A stretch of DNA of 64,000 nucleotides, from contig JAFDZV010000018.1 of NCBI GenBank assembly GCA_018266795.1, positions 96,826 through 160,825 of the forward strand. Direction: 5' to 3'. The stretch comes from Bacteroidota bacterium (GTDB lineage: Bacteria > Bacteroidota > Ignavibacteria > OLB7). The position numbers and the translations under genes are program-made. Position 1 is the stretch's first letter, and every line of letters begins with the position of its first letter. The notes under the pieces were generated by a model that was not told where the DNA came from, did not search any database, and worked only from the letters and a program-made list of their open reading frames with translations. Shown in pieces: positions 50,679-64,000 of this stretch.

Positions 50679-51758
50679 ATGAAGTGGTTTCTCGGATTGA
50701 TCGGGTTTGCAGCGGCCGCAGCGCTTGGCCTCTGGGCGTATGGAGCCTTTGGTGCCAGGAAAGTCATGGTCGCTGCGCCGGAACGCCGTGAGGCGGTCCG
50801 TGCAGTCTATGCCACCGGAGCCGTCAAGGCCGAACAGATAGCTCACATCCGTCCTGAGGTCGGAGGGCAGGTGATGCAGCTGCCGGTGAAGGAGGGAGAG
50901 GAGATCCGAGAGGGAATGCTGGTGATCCAGATTGCCGAGAAGGAGCAGAACGCAGCAGTTGCAGAGCAGGCGTCGCGCGTGCGCGAAGCATCCGTCGGCG
51001 TGGAGGAGGCGCAACAGAACTACGATCGCGAAACGCAGCTGCTTGCCCAGGGAGCAACAACTCAGCAGGCCGTGGACAACGCGAAGGCGACACTCGATCG
51101 CGCTTCGGCGCTCCTTGCAACTGTACGGGCAACGCTTGCAACGCGTCGCACACTCTCCGGCAGAGGGAAGGTAGTCTCGCCGATCAGCGGTGTGGTCACG
51201 AAGGTCGCTGTTCATGCCGGTGACATCATCCCGCCGAACATGGAAGCCGTCACCATCCTCGACCCGACATCGTTCAAGATATACGCCAGCATCGACGAGC
51301 TGGACATCACGCGCATACGCCCAGGGCAGGAAGCGGTGGTGGCGTTCGACGCCATGCCGCGCATGCGTTTCAAGGCCCGTGTGGAGCGCATCGTGCCGCA
51401 GGCGGACGATGTAACGAAAGCACTGCCGGTAATTCTGAACCTGATGGACATGGTGCCGAACCTCTCCGATGGGCTTACGGCTACGGTAAACATCGTGCAG
51501 GAGCGGACACCGAATGCGCTCACGATACCGGTGACGGCGTTGCTCAATCACAAGGGAACGAACGATACACTGTTCGTTGTGACCGACAACAACAGGCTGC
51601 AGCGCCGCGCCGTGAAGGTGGGTGTGCGTGGAGAGGATTACGTGGAGATTGTGGACGGTCTTCGCGACGAGGAGCGTGTTGTGTTGAGTCCCGACCCGTC
51701 GTGGAGCAGCGGCACAACCGTGGAGATCGACAGGGAGCGTGCACACGGAAGGAGATAG
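50679..51758 (+). CDS. Periplasmic adaptor (membrane fusion) protein of an ABC exporter
   Basis: 359 residues from ATG 50679. N-terminal anchor helix (LGLIGFAAAAALGLWAYGAF), a lipoyl-like half (about 45-80, ATGAVKAEQIAHIRPEVGG), a coiled-coil hairpin (about 90-150), the second lipoyl half (VSPISGVVTKVAVHAGD) and beta-barrel/membrane-proximal domains to the end. MacA-like. It is followed after 16 bp by the first permease gene, so it probably works with the ABC genes below. Divergent from msrP with a 182-bp spacer. Confidence 0.88.
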   Translation: MKWFLGLIGFAAAAALGLWAYGAFGARKVMVAAPERREAVRAVYATGAVKAEQIAHIRPEVGGQVMQLPVKEGEEIREGMLVIQIAEKEQNAAVAEQASRVREASVGVEEAQQNYDRETQLLAQGATTQQAVDNAKATLDRASALLATVRATLATRRTLSGRGKVVSPISGVVTKVAVHAGDIIPPNMEAVTILDPTSFKIYASIDELDITRIRPGQEAVVAFDAMPRMRFKARVERIVPQADDVTKALPVILNLMDMVPNLSDGLTATVNIVQERTPNALTIPVTALLNHKGTNDTLFVVTDNNRLQRRAVKVGVRGEDYVEIVDGLRDEERVVLSPDPSWSSGTTVEIDRERAHGRR

Positions 51759-51774
51759 CGGAACCTTCAACCGA

Positions 51775-53136
51775 ATGTTCTCGATGAACGGCAATCGTCT
51801 GGCAATGCGGATCGCACTTCGGCATCTCCGAGTTCGGAGACGCCCAACGATTCTTGCTACGCTGGGCATCGCGATCGGCGGCGGAATCTTTGCGTTGGTG
51901 GTTGCCATCACCACCGGGCAGCAGAACTTCCTGGAGGAGCGATTGATCGATGTCTCACCGCATATCATCATTACGTCCGATCGACTTCAGCCGCTGACGG
52001 CACAGAATCTCCTAGGCGAGCCGTCCCTGGACTCCGATCCTTCGGATGGGAAACGGCGTGAGGCTGTAATCGAATTGCGCAGGAACGTGCCGCCGCAGGC
52101 GCGCAAGGAGTTGAAGCCGTATCCCGCGCTCCAGTCGCTTGTGGAACATGGCCTGCCCGATGCGGTTGCGGTTGCCCCGTTCGTCGCGATGGATGGGGTC
52201 TTCCGCAATGGTGCACAGTTCCGGATGGTTTCCGTGCGCGGCATCGATCCCGTTCGTGAGCGGGCGATTGCAAATCTCGCGGCGATTGTCGTCGCGGGCC
52301 GATTGGAGGATCTCGCTTCGCATCCTGATGGCGTGGTGCTCGGCAGCGGGCTTGCCCGGAAGCTACACCTGAGTGTGGGGGAGACGTTCAGCTTCGTGAC
52401 GGCGTCCGGAACGATTCAGCAACTGGCGGTCACGGGGATATTCGAAAGTGGAATCGTGAATTTCGATGATCGTCGTGCATACATCAATCTTGCCACAGCT
52501 CAGCGTCTGCGCGGCATGTCGCGTACTGCGGCTTCCGGCCTGAGCGTTCGGGTTCGTGACGCCGATCGTGTGGTCGAGGCCGGGCAGCTGCTTCAGGCTC
52601 TTACCGGATACAGAACGGAGACATGGCAGGAGACGAACGCGCAGATCATCGCGTTGCAGGAACGGCTGGGAGTAATCGCGTGTCTGCTCGTGATCCCCGT
52701 CTTCGTCGCCGCTGCCTTCGGCATCTCGAATATGCTGGTGAGAATTGTGCTCGAGAAGAAGCCGGACGTGGCGATCATGACATCGTTCGGTGTGGCACGT
52801 GGAGTAGTTGTGCGCACATTCCTGTTCGAGGGAGCAATCATCGGTCTTGTTGGAGGCACCCTGGCAACCGGCGTCGGGTATGGCGCTGCACTCCTCGTTT
52901 CGCACCTTTATCCGATCCCCATGGTGAGCAACCAGGCGTATGTACGGTTCGATCGATTCCCGGTGGCGCTCGATCCGGCCATCTTCGTGCTGGCGTTCGG
53001 CACCTCGCTGTTCATGGCGATTGTCGCAAGTGTGCTTCCTGCCCGGCGCGCGGCTCGTTTCGTTCCTGTGCAGACCATTCGCGAAGAACGTCAGTCGATG
53101 TCGTTATGCGACATTTCGGAGATTTGCCGAAGCTGA
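51775..53136 (+). CDS. ABC transporter permease, MacB/LolC-type (first)
   Basis: 453 residues from ATG 51775. N-terminal TM (about 22-45), a large periplasmic domain (about 50-265), then three TM helices (about 285-320, 340-370, 390-425), the FtsX-type layout. The FtsX-domain stretch FGISNMLVRIVLEKKPDVAIMTSFG matches LolC/MacB. The 4-TM topology couples cytoplasmic ATP hydrolysis to periplasmic movement. Cargo is unknown: MacB-like (peptides, siderophores) or Lol-like (lipoproteins). Confidence 0.85.
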   Translation: MFSMNGNRLAMRIALRHLRVRRRPTILATLGIAIGGGIFALVVAITTGQQNFLEERLIDVSPHIIITSDRLQPLTAQNLLGEPSLDSDPSDGKRREAVIELRRNVPPQARKELKPYPALQSLVEHGLPDAVAVAPFVAMDGVFRNGAQFRMVSVRGIDPVRERAIANLAAIVVAGRLEDLASHPDGVVLGSGLARKLHLSVGETFSFVTASGTIQQLAVTGIFESGIVNFDDRRAYINLATAQRLRGMSRTAASGLSVRVRDADRVVEAGQLLQALTGYRTETWQETNAQIIALQERLGVIACLLVIPVFVAAAFGISNMLVRIVLEKKPDVAIMTSFGVARGVVVRTFLFEGAIIGLVGGTLATGVGYGAALLVSHLYPIPMVSNQAYVRFDRFPVALDPAIFVLAFGTSLFMAIVASVLPARRAARFVPVQTIREERQSMSLCDISEICRS

Positions 53137-53177
53137 TGCCGTGTTCGTTGTGTTGACGGACGCATGCATTCAACGGC

Positions 53178-54494
53178 ATGCATCACGGTCATGCCTGCCG
53201 ACAACCGAGAGCAATCCAGGACCCGCTTCCCATTCCGCTTCTGCTCACGATAGCGATTCAACAACTGCTTGCGTATCGGCGGCAGACAATCATCACCGTC
53301 AGCGGCATGATGGTTGGCGTTACCGTGGTGCTGGTAACGCTCTCGCTCTTCGGCGGCCTGCTTGATTCATTCACCAGGAAAATCCTGAACGTCGCGCCGC
53401 ACGTGACGATGACGGCAGTGAGCGTTCGCGGAGTAGGCACGGAGTTGCTTCTGGACGTGCCGCCGCACAGTGCGATCGAACTGGCGAGGAACGTGGAGCC
53501 GTTGGAACGTTTGCGCGTTCCGAATGTCATGAAGCTGCTTCGTGAGGTTGAGCAGGCACTCGGCAATCGTCTTACGGCAGCTTCCCCCTACCTTTCCACG
53601 CAGGTGCTTGCCGCATACGGTACCGGCAACGCTACACTGCCTGTTGTCGGGGTGATACCGAAGCGCGAGGCAATGATGAGCGATCTGACGAAGTATCTGC
53701 GGAGCGGATCGGTTGCAAGACTCGAGGCAACACACGACGGCATGTTGATCGGCGCGAAGGCCGCATCCGATCTCGGTGTGGACTTCGGCGATCGTCTTCA
53801 ACTTGTCTCCGCGACCGGCGATGTTGTGCCGGTGCGGGTTGTCGGCGTGTACCGTCTCGGTATGGGGGAATCGGATCGCGCCGCGTTCGTGAATCTCAGG
53901 CTTGCACAGACACTGGATCGTGCGCTGCCGAGTGAGGCAACCGGTATCGGGTTTCAGTTGAGGAACGTCGATGATGCTCCGGCCGCCGCGCTCGAGATCG
54001 AGGCAATCACCGGGCGAAAAACGGATACGTGGCAACAGACCAATGCCGACGCGATTTCGATCTTCGTACTCCGGCAAATGCTGGTCTACGCGGTGGTTGG
54101 ATTCGTCATCGTGATCTGCGGATTCGGGGTCGCGAATATTCTGATTACGATCGTGCTGGAGAAACGGCGCGACATCGCTGTGATGCGTTCGTTCGGCCTC
54201 TCGCGCTCGCGACTGTTCCGGATGTACCTGTTGCAGGGTCTGGTGATTGCAATCACGGGGAGTATCCTCGGGTGCGCGATCGGCGCGGTGGCCATCGGAC
54301 TGATGGGAACGATGCCCGTTGGCGCAGGCGTTGCCGCGGTGGAGACGAGGACGCTGCAGATGGCGTGGAGCCCGTGGTACTTCGTTGCTGCGGTCGCGAG
54401 CACATTGGTTGCCGGTGCCGTAGCTTCCATTGCTCCGGCGCGAACGGCCGCGAGTCTTGTCCCGGCCGACGTATTGCGAGGCGGACATCCGTGA
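53178..54494 (+). CDS. ABC transporter permease, MacB/LolC-type (second)
   Basis: 438 residues, paralogue of the preceding permease with the same plan: TM1 at about 38-60 (TIITVSGMMVGVTVVLVTLSL), periplasmic domain to about 275, then three TM helices. The signature GFGVANILITIVLEKRRDIAVMRSFGLSRSR is closely similar to its partner. The N-terminal 20 residues are Pro/His-rich, so a later start is possible. Two distinct permeases suggest a heterodimeric exporter like LolCE. Confidence 0.85.
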   Translation: MHHGHACRQPRAIQDPLPIPLLLTIAIQQLLAYRRQTIITVSGMMVGVTVVLVTLSLFGGLLDSFTRKILNVAPHVTMTAVSVRGVGTELLLDVPPHSAIELARNVEPLERLRVPNVMKLLREVEQALGNRLTAASPYLSTQVLAAYGTGNATLPVVGVIPKREAMMSDLTKYLRSGSVARLEATHDGMLIGAKAASDLGVDFGDRLQLVSATGDVVPVRVVGVYRLGMGESDRAAFVNLRLAQTLDRALPSEATGIGFQLRNVDDAPAAALEIEAITGRKTDTWQQTNADAISIFVLRQMLVYAVVGFVIVICGFGVANILITIVLEKRRDIAVMRSFGLSRSRLFRMYLLQGLVIAITGSILGCAIGAVAIGLMGTMPVGAGVAAVETRTLQMAWSPWYFVAAVASTLVAGAVASIAPARTAASLVPADVLRGGHP

Positions 54495-54660
54495 CCATTG
54501 CATGATTGTTCAATGAATGCAACGGCAATCCCTGCTCGATATGCGTAGTGCGTTTGAGTGAGGCATGGCGCCAGCGCGCCCTGCTGCGGGTTGCGATTGA
54601 CGTGCGCAGGATCATGCGAGCCCTTTATTCCGGCAGCAACGTTGAGATGTGCCTGTGACA

Positions 54661-55416
54661 ATGGATCGGAACGATACCGCGACACTACTTCGGCTGGAGC
54701 ATGTCCGGAGGATGAGCGATGCCTCCACGGAGGTTGCCAGCGTGATCATTCCCGATCTCACCATCGAGATTTCGAGTGGTGAGTTCGTGGCGATAACGGG
54801 GCCCTCCGGAGCGGGCAAGAGCACGCTGCTGTACATGATGGGTGGGCTGGACAGGCCGACATCGGGGCGGATCGTATTCGACGGCGAGGAGATCTCTTCG
54901 TTCTCGGAGGATCGTCTCTGCAGTATTCGCAATCTCAAGATCGGCTTGGTTTATCGGTTTCACTTTCTCCTGGCGGAGTTCACCGTGCTCGAGAATGTGA
55001 TGATGCCGATGCTGGTTGCCGGTACCGGACGTGCCGATGCGCGCGAGCGCGCACGGAAACTTCTGAATCGGGTTGAGCTGGATGAGAAGTTGCACAGCAG
55101 GCCGAGCCAGCTCTCGGGCGGAGAGCTGCAACGCGTTGCTGTGGCACGCGCGCTGGCCAACCGGCCGTTGCTCCTTCTGGGGGATGAGCTTACCGGATCG
55201 CTGGATTCACGATCGAGCCGCCATGTGTTCGATCTGCTGGAGGAGCTGAGCGCCGAAGGGCAGACGATTGTGTACGTGACGCACGATGCAGAACTGGCTT
55301 CGCGTGCGCGGCGCCGCGTGCACATCGTAGATGGAGCGATTGTATCGGATACGGGGGCCGGACCGGCTCGTCGTGGCACCACCGTTCCCGATGTGGATGT
55401 CGAACGTGAGGAATGA
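54661..55416 (+). CDS. ABC transporter ATP-binding protein with Q-loop substitution
   Basis: 251 residues. Walker A G47-P-S-G-A-G-K-S54, signature L151-S-G-G-E, Walker B LLLLGDE with catalytic E176, H-loop H208. LolD/MacB family. Two departures: the Q-loop glutamine (usually FQFHHLL) is R99 in VYRFHFLL, and the D-loop context is DELTGSLD where DEPTGNLD is usual. The Q-loop senses the permease and coordinates Mg, so ATPase coupling may differ. Starts 166 bp after the second permease; ATG 54661 chosen over GTG 54655. Confidence 0.88.
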   Translation: MDRNDTATLLRLEHVRRMSDASTEVASVIIPDLTIEISSGEFVAITGPSGAGKSTLLYMMGGLDRPTSGRIVFDGEEISSFSEDRLCSIRNLKIGLVYRFHFLLAEFTVLENVMMPMLVAGTGRADARERARKLLNRVELDEKLHSRPSQLSGGELQRVAVARALANRPLLLLGDELTGSLDSRSSRHVFDLLEELSAEGQTIVYVTHDAELASRARRRVHIVDGAIVSDTGAGPARRGTTVPDVDVEREE

Positions 55417-56345: not shown

Positions 56346-56818
56346 GGAGGGCCTCCGTGAGATGTTGAGCGATTCTGCCCGTTATCGCAACGGGATGTTG
56401 ATGCTGCACGTGCCGGATCGACAGGTGATCCGGCAGGATCTTTATTTCCGTGAACGTAGCGCATGCACCGAATGTTCGTGTCGCTCCCGCAGGTCGTGCG
56501 GGCTACGATTGGCCTGAGGGCGTTCTGTGGCGGCGCTGTATGTGCGCAGCGGCTGGTGTGGACATGAACACCGGCCGCGTTCCGGGTGGATACAGCCGGG
56601 CGGTTCTCCGCCTTCCGGATTCAGCGACGAAACCGGACCGAACGCAATGCAGCGGACAAGATAGTGCTGCGGCGGAACACCCGGGAGCTCGGCACCATGT
56701 AGAATGTACGGACATGATGACAGTGCGTTGACGGCGTACGGGTGTGGATTTGCGGCGCAGGTACTGTAACTTGGGCACGGTTCAGGTGTTCCACCCGCGA
56801 TTCCGGAATACGTTCAAC
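56346..56818. other. 473-bp divergent spacer upstream of the ECF sigma gene
   Basis: Contains a hairpin at 56411-56435 and, near 56767, TGTAACTTGGG, one mismatch from a TAnnTTTG -7 element, about 45 bp before the sigma-factor ATG. Nothing else recognised. Autoregulatory ECF promoter motifs were looked for without a clear result. Confidence 0.45.
56411..56435 (+). other. Hairpin followed by a T-rich stretch
   Basis: TGCCGGATC (56411-56419), 7-nt loop, GATCCGGCA (56427-56435), then GGATCTTTATTTCC. No gene ends upstream on this strand, so if it is a terminator it would end a non-coding or antisense transcript. Confidence 0.45.
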
Positions 56819-57367
56819 ATGGCAGGCAAGTTCGCAAAACATACCGACGAGGAGCTCTTCACGCTCATGAGCGGCGGGGAGAAGTCTGCGTTTGTGGAGC
56901 TGTATACTCGGTATCGCAGCCGCATCTACGCATACGCCCTGCGGATGCTCGGCAATCGCGATATGGCCAACGATGTGTTCCAGGAGACGTTCACGCGCAT
57001 CTATCATCGCTGCCGTGAACAGGAGCGAATCATGTCCAACGTATCGGCCTACATCTTCACGACCGCACGGAACATCGCACTCAACATGATCCGCAACAGC
57101 AAGCCGACTGCCGCGGTGGAGGACTATCATGAGATTGTCTTCCAGCCGAGCCACGAGAACGTGGAGCTTGCGGAACTGGTGAAGCGGTCGCTGGAACTGC
57201 TTCCGCAGAACCACCGGGAGGTGTTCGTGCTTCGCGAATACAACGGGCTGAGCTATCAGGAGATTTCGGAGATCACCGGCCAGAGCCTTGCGGCTGTGAA
57301 GGTGCATATCTACCGCGCCAAGGAGCGGCTTCGGAAGATTCTTTCCCCCTATCTCGAAGAAGTATGA
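56819..57367 (+). CDS. ECF-family RNA polymerase sigma factor
   Basis: 182 residues from ATG 56819. Sigma-2 region (about 22-85) with ALRMLGNRDMANDVFQETF and sigma-4 region (about 120-175) with LPQNHREVFVLREYNGLSYQ and a helix-turn-helix recognition helix SLAAVKVHIYRAKERLRK. No extra C-terminal domain. The gene for its putative anti-sigma factor begins 33 bp downstream, the usual ECF/anti-sigma arrangement. Confidence 0.93.
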   Translation: MAGKFAKHTDEELFTLMSGGEKSAFVELYTRYRSRIYAYALRMLGNRDMANDVFQETFTRIYHRCREQERIMSNVSAYIFTTARNIALNMIRNSKPTAAVEDYHEIVFQPSHENVELAELVKRSLELLPQNHREVFVLREYNGLSYQEISEITGQSLAAVKVHIYRAKERLRKILSPYLEEV

Positions 57368-57400
57368 AGAACGGATGAGCGATAGTAGCCAGACGGTACC

Positions 57401-58999
57401 ATGATACAGAGTGAACAAATCCTGGAGTATATCGACGGCCAGCTCGACGCCGAGTCAGAGCAGGAGCTGTTCGATACGATGGCCCGGCAACCGGAGCTTC
57501 GCTCGGTGCTGCGGCAGTTCGTCAGCATCGGGGAGGCCGTGCGTGCCGATCGCGAGGCATACGCGCCGCCCGCTGATGTTGAACGTTCGCTCATGGCGGG
57601 GCTTGGTATCGCTGCCAGTGAGCTTGGCTTCGCTACGGGAGCCACCGGAATCGTGGCGAGACTCGGCGCCATCCTCGGTGGAAAGCTGTGGGGAGCGGTG
57701 GACGCATTCGTTGGCGGTGTTGTGCTCACCGGCATTCTGTTCGCTTTGATGACGACTCCGCATGCGGATCTTGCCGACGGCCGGGTTGCACCGGCGGGCG
57801 ACCATCGTACGATCGCTTTTGCCGACGGACGCGGCTCCGCACCGAATTCCAGCCAGCCCGGCGTCACCGTAACACAGGGAGATGGAATCCGGTCTTCGGA
57901 GACCGCCTCCCGGCCGGCCGGCGTTGCTTCCGAGGCAAAGCTCTCCCCATCGGTGAATCCCGAACTCCCGGCAACCCGGTCGAACGATGTCGGCACGGTT
58001 GCCGTGCCGCATGTGAACGGAAGTGCGGCTGTCGTCCCGAATGCTCCTCGCCAGTTCGTTATTGGTCATGGCAGCCGGATGAACAACGGCACTTCCCGAT
58101 TGGTTGATCAGTCTGTTTCCGACCCTTCGTCACCAAGCAGGCGGGCCAACAATTCGTCGGCGGAACGGAGCGGCGCGGAGCATGACATGCGCCGGAATGG
58201 CTTGCAGCAATCATTGCCAAGCGATGCTTCAGGGACCCACGCTCCGGCCGAGGGCGTGAGCGAGCCCTCGGCATCCGCATCGTCAGCCAACGTTCAACAT
58301 CCGGTCTCGCGGCCGGCCGTTCCGCCTTTGGGCTCCCAGGTAACTGTGCCGCCGGACCTGGCTGAAGCATGGAGACCTGCATCTGCGCGGACGATTCCGA
58401 TGGCGGTGGCTCCGGCGCATCACGAGGATATCGATTGGGCAGTGTTGCCGGCCGGAGTGCGTGAGAGGGTCAACAGTACGAATCCGCTGGACGTTGAACC
58501 CGATTCCGATAACCGATCCAGCGCATTTGCCGAGATCCGCGGCCAGATGGGGGGCTCGCTCCAGACAAGCAATGCACGCGCCGACGTTGGCACCGGCCGT
58601 ACGGCCTATGCCGGCGGTGCCTACTGGGGATTCAATAAGTCGGTGGCCATCGGGCTCGAGGGGGGAAGCGAGAGCTACGATCAGACTCTGCGCTATCAAC
58701 ATGGAGATACATTGCAGATCGACCAGCGCCCGAGCTACTTCTGGGGCGGTATCGGATTGCGATATATGATGACGGACCTCTCGTTCGTCGGCGCCGAACC
58801 GTTTTTGAACGTCACACTTGGAGGAACGTCGGTGGGGCCGATGTTCCGTTTTCGCGTGGGCGCGCAGTACAGCATTACCAGCGCGCTTGGCGCAAATCTG
58901 AGCGGCGAACTTTCGTCGATTCAATACCAGTTCGATAACCAGCGGCTCTATTCGGGACGTTGGGGGCTCACGATGGGCCTGACCTATCGGGCGTGGTAG
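57401..58999 (+). CDS. Anti-sigma factor with C-terminal outer membrane barrel (dual-membrane type)
   Basis: 532 residues. Residues about 1-55 (LEYIDGQLDAESEQELFDTM ... ELRSVLRQF) resemble a zinc-free anti-sigma domain. A single TM helix spans about 96-118. Residues about 120-385 are a Pro/Ser/Ala/Asn-rich, low-complexity linker without predicted folds. Residues about 386-532 form strands typical of an eight-stranded outer membrane barrel (GGAYWGFNKSVAIGLEGG, YFWGGIGLRYMM, RFRVGAQYSI), ending GLTYRAW with a C-terminal aromatic. The layout matches dual membrane-spanning anti-sigma factors described in Bacteroides thetaiotaomicron. Inferred function: sense outer membrane state and control the ECF sigma factor. 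Confidence 0.82.
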   Translation: MIQSEQILEYIDGQLDAESEQELFDTMARQPELRSVLRQFVSIGEAVRADREAYAPPADVERSLMAGLGIAASELGFATGATGIVARLGAILGGKLWGAVDAFVGGVVLTGILFALMTTPHADLADGRVAPAGDHRTIAFADGRGSAPNSSQPGVTVTQGDGIRSSETASRPAGVASEAKLSPSVNPELPATRSNDVGTVAVPHVNGSAAVVPNAPRQFVIGHGSRMNNGTSRLVDQSVSDPSSPSRRANNSSAERSGAEHDMRRNGLQQSLPSDASGTHAPAEGVSEPSASASSANVQHPVSRPAVPPLGSQVTVPPDLAEAWRPASARTIPMAVAPAHHEDIDWAVLPAGVRERVNSTNPLDVEPDSDNRSSAFAEIRGQMGGSLQTSNARADVGTGRTAYAGGAYWGFNKSVAIGLEGGSESYDQTLRYQHGDTLQIDQRPSYFWGGIGLRYMMTDLSFVGAEPFLNVTLGGTSVGPMFRFRVGAQYSITSALGANLSGELSSIQYQFDNQRLYSGRWGLTMGLTYRAW

Positions 59000-59075: not shown

Positions 59076-60044
59076 ATGGTAGAACGTATTTGCAGGTTCG
59101 TCTGGCGGCACTCGTGGCAGATCGGCATCATTGCCGGTCTCGTTGTGCTTGCAGGCGCCTGCAAGGAACTGCCCGTTGACCAGAATACCGCGAACGTAAC
59201 GCGGCGGCCCAAGGACACGCTGGTCACGCACGATACCACTATCGATCGTGATACAACTATCAAGGCGGACACTGTCATCACCACAGATCGCGATACCTTG
59301 ATCAAGCGGGATACGGTGGTGCACATCAAGACGGTGATCCGCACGGTTACCGTGGTGCAGGTTGATTCGGTGATCGAACGCGATACGCTCAGGCTCAGGG
59401 ATACGATTGTCAGAAACGATACGCTGAAGCTGTGGGACACCCTGAAGGTTCGAGACACGCTCAAGCTGCGTGATACGCTCACGATCCGGGATACCGTGAA
59501 GGTTGTCGACACGGTGACCGTACGTGATACCATCAGCAAGGTGGATACTCTTCGGGAGGTGTTGAAGCCGCGCTATGCCATGCTCTTCCGAAAAACGGAT
59601 ACCAGGACGATCGATTCGGTTGCGATGGAGATCGACGACATCACCTTGCTTGTCCTCGAACTGAGCCCGGGAACGGGCCCGACGGCCGTGCAGTTGAAGC
59701 TGATAGGGCGTGTGGTGGCATCGTACGACACCGTAAAGTGGGGCGCGATTGCGCCGTCGTGGCTGTACATGATCATACCGCACACGGCGATCGTCAATGG
59801 AAGCGCACGGCGCGAGTTTGCCGTTGATCCCTGGAACAACACGTCGGCTCCGGGGCTGGCGATCATTCCGCGTGCCCCCTACAATCGAACGTGGGTGGCT
59901 GCAATACCCTCTGCAAGTTCCGGAACGTTCACCGTGGCAGAAATCGATACCACCGATCGCTGGCTGTATTGCTACGTGAAGGCGAAGTTCGGCTCGCCGA
60001 GCGGCGCCGCAATCGATTCACTTGCGTTGCGCTTTCAGTACTGA
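59076..60044 (+). CDS. Lipoprotein with hexapeptide Asp-Thr repeats
   Basis: 322 residues from ATG 59076. Lipoprotein signal with lipobox LAGAC (Cys29). From residue 47 to about 158 an Asp-Thr (DT) doublet recurs every six residues: 47, 53, 59, 65, then 73, 79 and so on in register to 157, with K-T, V-T and D-S at the 85, 91 and 97 positions. The typical unit is R-D-T-L-K-L. The C-terminal part (about 165-322) is beta-rich and unrecognised. Follows the anti-sigma gene by 76 bp. It may form a fibre or beta-solenoid stalk; function unknown. Confidence 0.75.
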   Translation: MVERICRFVWRHSWQIGIIAGLVVLAGACKELPVDQNTANVTRRPKDTLVTHDTTIDRDTTIKADTVITTDRDTLIKRDTVVHIKTVIRTVTVVQVDSVIERDTLRLRDTIVRNDTLKLWDTLKVRDTLKLRDTLTIRDTVKVVDTVTVRDTISKVDTLREVLKPRYAMLFRKTDTRTIDSVAMEIDDITLLVLELSPGTGPTAVQLKLIGRVVASYDTVKWGAIAPSWLYMIIPHTAIVNGSARREFAVDPWNNTSAPGLAIIPRAPYNRTWVAAIPSASSGTFTVAEIDTTDRWLYCYVKAKFGSPSGAAIDSLALRFQY

Positions 60045-62023: not shown

Positions 62024-64000
62024 TTACTTCTCGATCACGATCGAGCCAAGCGTTGCGTTCCAGTCCGCGTTCGAGACACGGCAGTAGTACGTTCCGGATG
62101 GAAGCACTGCGGCGTTGAACTCGACGGTATGGAATCCGCCACGCTCGAACAGGTCGCTCAGGTTGAGCGCCGGCTTGCCCATGGCATCATACAGCACCAC
62201 CTGCGTGCCCGGACGTGCAACCACACCCTGCGGCAGGTTGATCGTCAGGCGGGTCATGCCGGAGGCCGGCTGCGGGACGACGGTCATCGAAGCACCGGTC
62301 GTGATGTCGTAGTTCGGCACACCGGAGACGCCAACCACAACCTTCACCTTGTCCGACGTTGCAGCCGGGTCGCAGAGGCCGCTGACGACGCAGTCGTAGT
62401 TGCCGCTGTTCTCTGGCTGGGCGTTGGTGATCGTGTAGGTCGAGCTGGTCGCACCCGGGATGGCTGCGCCGTCCTTGCGCCACTGATACGTCACGTTCGT
62501 GCCGGTGGCTTTCACCACGAGGACGATCGTTCCGTTACGCGGGAAGCTGTCGGCGGTAACCGTCGGCTGATCCGTGATCTTCGGCGACTCGTTCAGAATC
62601 AGGTGGGCATTCAAGCTGACCACCGAATCGGTGCAGGCACCGCCAAGGAACACGCTGTACGATCCCGTGTCCGCGACCGAAGCGGCGGAGATGGTCAGCG
62701 AGTCCAGCGTGGCGCCCGAGATATCGGAGCCGTTCTTCCGCCACTGATACGTGAGCTGCGAACCACCGGCACCGATCTTGAAGACGGCCTTCTGGCCAGG
62801 GCACACAGTAACGTCGCCCGGCTGCGTCGTAATGAACGCAGGCTGGTTGATCGTCACCGCTGCAGGGCTTGTGATGAGCGGCTGCGAGGCGCCCGGTGCG
62901 TTGATGACGCAGTCGTAGCTGGCGGCATCGCCCGGGACGGTCTGATCGATCGTGTAGTCGCGGCTGGTTGCGCCCGGGATGTTCACGCCGTTCTTGCGCC
63001 ACTGGTAGCTGAGGCCGATGCCTGCTGCCGTAACGCTGAGCGTAACCTTCGAGCCTTCGCAAGCGGACTGATCCTGCGGCTGCTTAACGATCGTCGGCGG
63101 GACGTTCAGATACAGAAGCGCCTTGTCGCTGACGACCACTTCACGATCGGAGCAGATCGTGCCGCGGATCACGCAGCTATACTCTGCTATATCGTCGATC
63201 GTGGCGTTCTGGATGATCAGAGTATCGTGCGTACGGCCCGGCAGGTTCACGCCGTCCTTCTGCCACTGATAGCTGATGATGCCGCCGCCGATCACCTTGA
63301 TATGGAAGGTGACCGTGGTGCCCGGCTGGATCGACTGATCGAGCGGCTGCTCGGTGATGATCGGATCCAGGTCCACCGTCAGGTGCGCCTTCGGCGTCGT
63401 GACCGACGGATCGCAAGCGCCCGTGATCACGCAGTCGTAATCGCCGGCGTTGTACGGCTGAGCCATGACGTTGAGTGTCGGCGAGTTGGCACCATCCATG
63501 TTGATGCCGTCCTTGCGCCACTGATACACCAGTGCCTCACCCGTGGCAACCACCGAGAAGGTTGCCATCTGGCCACGGCACACGTGCTGATCGCCGGTGC
63601 TGCTGAGGATGGTCGGCGGAACACGGAGCGTGAACGTGGCCGGATTCGACGTGACGGGCGAACCGCACGTACCGGACACCACGCAGTCGTAGGAGCCGTT
63701 GTCGGACGAAGAAACCGACGGCAGCAGATACTGCGGCCCGTTGGCACCAACGATGTTGGAGGAGTTCTTGCGCCACTGATAGACAAGTCCGCTGCCGGAT
63801 GCCTGGACACTGAAGGTAACAGGCGTGCCCGGGCACACGGTTGCGCTGGTCGGGTTCTGCGTGATCCCCGGCGGCGTGTACACCGTCAGCGTGGCAGGGC
63901 TGGTGGTTACCTGGTTGCGGACAACGCAGTCGTAGATGCCTGCGTCGCTCGGCTGCACGTTGACGATCGTGTAGCTGGTGCCGGTGGCGCCAACGATCGG
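62024..64000 (-). CDS. Ig-repeat T9SS cargo protein (5' end outside window)
   Basis: The C-terminal 658 residues of a larger secreted protein running off the right edge. It contains six full immunoglobulin-like domains of about 90 residues and part of a seventh, each with a PP.I...P start, YQWRKNG (or KDG) core strand and SYDCVV-type cysteine strand. The final ~80 residues are a T9SS type A sorting domain (VPQPASGMTRLTINLP, VVLYDAMGKPAL, LPSGTYYCRV). Repeats are similar at DNA level, a possible recombination substrate. Likely surface-exposed adhesin-like protein. Confidence 0.9.
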   Translation of the reverse strand, partial: PIVGATGTSYTIVNVQPSDAGIYDCVVRNQVTTSPATLTVYTPPGITQNPTSATVCPGTPVTFSVQASGSGLVYQWRKNSSNIVGANGPQYLLPSVSSSDNGSYDCVVSGTCGSPVTSNPATFTLRVPPTILSSTGDQHVCRGQMATFSVVATGEALVYQWRKDGINMDGANSPTLNVMAQPYNAGDYDCVITGACDPSVTTPKAHLTVDLDPIITEQPLDQSIQPGTTVTFHIKVIGGGIISYQWQKDGVNLPGRTHDTLIIQNATIDDIAEYSCVIRGTICSDREVVVSDKALLYLNVPPTIVKQPQDQSACEGSKVTLSVTAAGIGLSYQWRKNGVNIPGATSRDYTIDQTVPGDAASYDCVINAPGASQPLITSPAAVTINQPAFITTQPGDVTVCPGQKAVFKIGAGGSQLTYQWRKNGSDISGATLDSLTISAASVADTGSYSVFLGGACTDSVVSLNAHLILNESPKITDQPTVTADSFPRNGTIVLVVKATGTNVTYQWRKDGAAIPGATSSTYTITNAQPENSGNYDCVVSGLCDPAATSDKVKVVVGVSGVPNYDITTGASMTVVPQPASGMTRLTINLPQGVVARPGTQVVLYDAMGKPALNLSDLFERGGFHTVEFNAAVLPSGTYYCRVSNADWNATLGSIVIEK

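Follow-up and report, generated by a model that had tools for sequence, protein, structure and literature searches.

A predicted envelope-spanning anti-sigma factor encoded with an ECF sigma factor and a conserved lipoprotein in the class Ignavibacteria

Can a single polypeptide report an event at the outer membrane to an ECF sigma factor in the cytoplasm, and if so, is the one encoded here a relative of the Dma proteins of Bacteroides? The question is raised by a three-gene unit in the window, by which we mean the whole 64,000-nucleotide stretch of DNA that was analysed. An earlier note had placed an ECF sigma factor gene at 56819-57367 and an anti-sigma gene at 57401-58999, and both assignments agree with the Pfam matches and the translation. 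The features of the unit, all on the plus strand, are as follows.

56766-56790, +: predicted ECF-type promoter GTAAC-N16-TGTT (GTAACTTGGGCACGGTTCAGGTGTT), 28 bases before the sigma factor start
56819-57367, +: ECF sigma factor gene, 182 aa (Pfam and NCBIfam matches, tree; Sigma70_r2 8.7e-14, Sigma70_r4_2 4.7e-16)
57401-58999, +: envelope-spanning anti-sigma gene (whole), 532 aa plus stop, ending in ...TYRAW (translation, AlphaFold2, 28-sequence alignment)
57407-57601, +: anti-sigma domain of class I type, residues 3-67, four helices, conserved DG at 12-13
57650-57751, +: membrane helix, residues 84-117, hydrophobic core from 99
57752-58519, +: tether, residues 118-373, disordered and rich in Ala, Ser and Pro (pLDDT mostly below 50; composition)
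58520-58996, +: predicted eight-stranded outer-membrane barrel, residues 374-532, terminal Trp (AlphaFold2, Foldseek, strand alternation)
59076-60044, +: third gene, a lipoprotein, in the same position in nearly all relatives; its ORF is listed from 59028, with 59076 the likelier start
59160-59180, +: lipid cysteine (at 59160) and motif CKELPVD, its C and PVD invariant among four members of the order (motif statistics)
59214-59549, +: RDT/DT repeat spacer of the lipoprotein, variable in length between relatives
59571-60041, +: C-terminal domain of the lipoprotein, probably beta-rich, with no Pfam family

Two other regions of the window were read by eye. Two FtsX/LolC-like permease genes and an ABC ATPase gene lie at 51739-55416, all on the plus strand, and repeated Ig-like domains are encoded on the minus strand at 62024-63958, with a C-terminal tail resembling a type IX secretion sorting domain.

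The structure of the anti-sigma protein was predicted with AlphaFold2 from 28 sequences (the window protein and 27 relatives). The model has anti-sigma domain helices at 3-11, 17-29, 31-53 and 58-67, one long membrane helix at 84-117, disorder from about 118 to about 367, and barrel strands at 374-386, 402-410, 415-434, 436-456, 465-475, 480-491, 496-511 and 514-531 with pLDDT mostly above 90; the count of eight is our reading of the strand list, in which two broken strands were each taken as one. The pTM of the whole model is only 0.43, which we account for by the tether, and the relative placement of the domains in the model is uninformative. The order proposed in the earlier note, namely anti-sigma domain, one helix, linker, barrel and terminal Trp, is thus upheld by AlphaFold2 and translation, and the eight-stranded barrel and inner membrane helix that it expected of a structure prediction were both found with AlphaFold2 and Foldseek. 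Its sizes need correction, since the tether has about 256 residues rather than 265, and the barrel starts at 374 rather than 386 and has 159 residues rather than 147.

At the N-terminus, the predicted helices show the four-helix build of class I (ASDI) anti-sigma domains, which normally bind the sigma factor (PMC7406223). The match to RseA_N has an E-value of 0.032, below the Pfam cut-off, with 6 of the 28 sequences matching at up to 0.1, and the domain profile matches the RseA structure 1or7_C at 0.038. In the 28-sequence alignment, the mean pairwise identity is 36.8% for the anti-sigma domain and 28% for the barrel, and it falls to 12.6% for the tether, which varies from 107 to 256 residues across the relatives. 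Conserved ends with a drifting tether fit two functional ends joined by a string.

It was found that this arrangement is widespread in the class. A close paralogue of the anti-sigma protein lies on another contig (C50) of the same genome, also preceded by an ECF gene. When the single anti-sigma protein was used, 29 of 297 sampled genomes of the phylum matched, and an ECF gene stood directly upstream in nearly all loci fetched from those 29 genomes; a single-protein scan of genome contigs with P0001 found no relatives. The alignment profile had matches in every one of the 5 genomes of the order and, in the class, in 230 of the 391 genomes sampled. By our reading of the match table, matches are strong in at least 15 families and mostly full-length there, and several others have weak matches only, apparently confined to the anti-sigma domain. 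The full-length relatives keep the same part order, with an ECF gene upstream in nearly every locus examined. Such recurrence behind ECF genes is more than chance, and the conservation beside ECF genes for which the earlier note suggested a search is present across the lineage. In a DNA polymerase I tree, the window and f5, f6, f8, f10, f17 and f18, all bearing the system, form one clade (97/95), with f2 and f3 outside it and the system-bearing f51 outside with weak support; the class lies apart from Bacteroidales.

The genome of the window contains many other ECF genes. Further ECF-linked anti-sigma proteins of 485-749 aa are encoded on its contigs C15, C3 and C4 (G000; L067, L068, L069, L070 and L072), with a membrane helix, a long low-complexity middle and beta-like C-termini. 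These divergent paralogues were left out of the family because their barrel matches are weak or absent, and the third gene differs in some of them.

The closest known systems in architecture are Dma1/Dma2 and their sigma factors Das1/Das2 in Bacteroides thetaiotaomicron, which share with the window an anti-sigma domain, a membrane helix, a disordered tether, a barrel and an adjacent ECF gene. The Dma papers report the same four-part order with an adjoining ECF21 gene, and they link such proteins to ECF21 partners, Bacteroidota and vesicles; the Dma2 operon BT_1559-1557 has a third gene of unknown function (PMC13088901). In agreement with that operon, the Dma2-type operon that we located in B. 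faecis consists of a sigma factor, a barrel protein and a DUF4943 lipoprotein, so that it ends, like the window unit, in a lipoprotein-type gene. The B. faecis locus taken as Dma1 has no lipoprotein behind it, and in the AlphaFold2 model its protein starts with a short two-helix N-terminus, followed by a membrane helix, a disordered stretch and a barrel resembling that of OmpA. Dma3 also resembles the window protein in its tether and outer-membrane barrel, but it carries the sigma factor within the same polypeptide. Such fusions of sigma domain, membrane helix, tether and barrel were seen at L246 (3261-4916), L247 (2823-4487), L257 and L258, in B. faecis (two copies) and Prevotella.

By analogy, the window system would work like Dma. 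A true member of the Dma family by descent, diverged beyond the reach of sequence comparison, would also be expected to show the shared part order and OmpA-like barrel, and the lipoprotein gene in third place of the Dma2 operon fits this reading too. On the other hand, the anti-sigma builds differ, with four helices of class I type in the window protein and a short segment of one or two helices in Dma. Sequence profiles detected no homology between the two sets: when window-type and Bacteroidales profiles were compared, the anti-sigma domains aligned with 2% probability and the barrels with 26-31%. The barrel alignment at 31% is collinear, though weak, and speaks for common descent. The class profile gave no significant match in five Bacteroidales genomes. 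In the best sigma factor tree, the Bacteroidales partners form one clade (100/100) among Bacteroides sigma factors, while the window type forms a separate one (99/96) beside the partners of short class I anti-sigma factors from its own genome. Nevertheless, an AU test did not reject a single sigma clade (p 0.199), and for this reason we do not claim an independent origin as shown. Membership in the Dma family by descent seems to us unlikely, and on these sequences common descent is neither shown nor excluded. The view of the earlier note that the locus is a copy of the Bacteroides system is, as stated, not supported by these profile and tree results, and control of vesiculation finds no support in this unit.

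Another reading takes the C-terminal domain as a soluble periplasmic beta domain, in which case the protein would be an inner-membrane anti-sigma factor of the ordinary kind, equipped with a large sensor. In its favour, the barrel stays below the Pfam cut-offs in the members scanned. The barrel is nevertheless predicted with high confidence as an OmpA/OmpX-type eight-stranded transmembrane fold, and its top Foldseek matches, among them OmpA, NspA, Ail and a designed eight-stranded barrel, are without exception membrane barrels, either of the outer membrane or designed. The strands mostly alternate in hydrophobicity, and the last residue is Phe or Leu in 24 of the 28 sequences (Trp in the window protein), as in barrel assembly signals. 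We regard a soluble domain as highly improbable. Still less credible is that the barrel protein merely neighbours the sigma factor without regulating it, since the two genes stay together in many families as well as in paralogues within a single genome, and the N-terminus shows the class I four-helix build.

The third gene, a lipoprotein, lies directly downstream of nearly every full-length copy. The motif C-x(2,3)-[PS]-x-D follows the lipid anchor in 22 of 30 third-gene lipoproteins (21 relatives and the CKELPVD of the window); of 52 other lipoprotein-like candidates, drawn from two genomes (about 464 kb), 1 has it. This control set was chosen by a simple pattern and includes false ones. Among the four orthologues in the order, the C, the PVD and the following T and V are invariant, the bodies drift to 28% identity, and the DT repeat of the window protein is a spacer of variable length. 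This spacer differs strongly in length between close relatives and in part has an 18-base period at the DNA level. The bodies vary widely: one has TIG domains, one has HYDIN-like Ig domains and most have no Pfam family. The window lipoprotein does align with its orthologues inside the order, and a direct search with it (P0003) against the other lipoproteins found no homology of the body. A Pfam match to LbH was dismissed as a chance match to the repeats. Widely differing bodies behind a conserved post-anchor stretch are what is expected of a docking segment, and this pattern suggests that the common anchor segment contacts a fixed partner. The lipoprotein would be at least an output of the system and may be both output and partner. 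The earlier guess that it is a component of the system is supported by its conserved position and motif. A lipoprotein as third gene is not wholly without precedent, since one closes the Dma2 operon as well.

The promoter pattern GTAAC-N16-TGTT occurs in 21 of 63 upstream regions of the relatives, about a third, where many loci are related and are not independent draws. At that spacing it occurs in neither the shuffles nor the coding control, and GTAAC and TGTT at other spacings from 11 to 21 occur in none of the upstream regions; a search of these regions for GAAC-type -35 motifs also found nothing. The copy at 56766-56790 is the sole match in the window, against a chance mean of 0.09. GTAACTT-N13-GTGTT, the lineage form that the window has in common with its orthologues, has a single occurrence in the 5.97-Mb genome and a single one in its congener, in both cases before the orthologous sigma gene. 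Two sister genomes have a second promoter copy 82-83 bases before an orthologous 472-aa lipoprotein. This protein (AACSENTPTEVPNG...; L288 and L289 in genomes G298 and G299) is a candidate regulon member. The pattern of occurrence points to autoregulation and a small regulon.

Other systems share parts of this design. In FecI/FecR TonB-dependent cell-surface signalling, an outer-membrane barrel likewise controls an ECF factor, but the anti-sigma factor is a protein distinct from the receptor; in the window unit there is no Pfam match to the FecR domain, and none of its three genes encodes a TonB receptor. RpoE-RseA-RseB resembles the unit in its class-I-type anti-sigma domain and in the operon shared by a sigma factor, an anti-sigma factor and a third envelope protein. 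RseA, however, has no outer-membrane barrel, and RseB is not a lipoprotein with the post-lipid motif of the window protein. Phocaeicola vulgatus M0N98_03761/03760 and EcfO-Reo (PMC9308784, PMC13114119) have a large anti-sigma factor with a predicted outer-membrane barrel, as here; they are Bacteroidales systems, and the likeness is one of architecture.

What the computations show are the domains and their sequence along the protein, a predicted barrel, the order of the genes, and conservation of both promoter and lipoprotein; from these we infer inhibition of this sigma factor, its release, a signal and transcription of its own operon. We consider it quite probable that the three genes form an autoregulated envelope switch: something that happens at the outer membrane would, by way of one polypeptide, set the sigma factor free. 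The N-terminal class-I-type domain would hold the sigma factor at the inner membrane, and the same polypeptide would cross that membrane, span the periplasm as a slack tether and end in the outer-membrane barrel. Even the shortest tether, with 107 residues, reaches about 38 nm when extended. The usual periplasm is narrower than this, which leaves room for slack in the string and makes constant tension unnecessary. A disturbance of the barrel or a ligand, such as failed assembly, envelope damage, a bound molecule or the lipoprotein partner, would act as the trigger and would expose the anti-sigma protein to proteolysis or otherwise free the sigma factor. The freed sigma factor would then transcribe its own operon, including the lipoprotein. 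Among these triggers, failed barrel assembly or envelope damage would be the likeliest, by analogy with the pair in Phocaeicola, which has an outer-membrane barrel at the C-terminus and is induced by envelope damage (PMC9308784).

As such units are multiplied in the class, each may read a different outer-membrane condition. We also put forward, tentatively and with more doubt than confidence, that a one-polypeptide route for signals from the outer membrane into the cytoplasm was put together independently at least two times. In the class, a class I domain would have been the foundation, and the route would have expanded to a large number of channels running in parallel. They would work with a lipoprotein of their own, which docks through its conserved post-lipid segment on the barrel or the tether and thereby sets the signal.

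Learning of outer-membrane events usually takes several relayed proteins, and in this unit a single protein appears to cover the whole distance. In the class it is present in many copies, with different lipoproteins. The set is separate from the Dma proteins, larger and so far unstudied; its anti-sigma domain is a different one, its promoter is defined and its third part is conserved. The promoter, the tether and the motif are direct handles on how such proteins signal.
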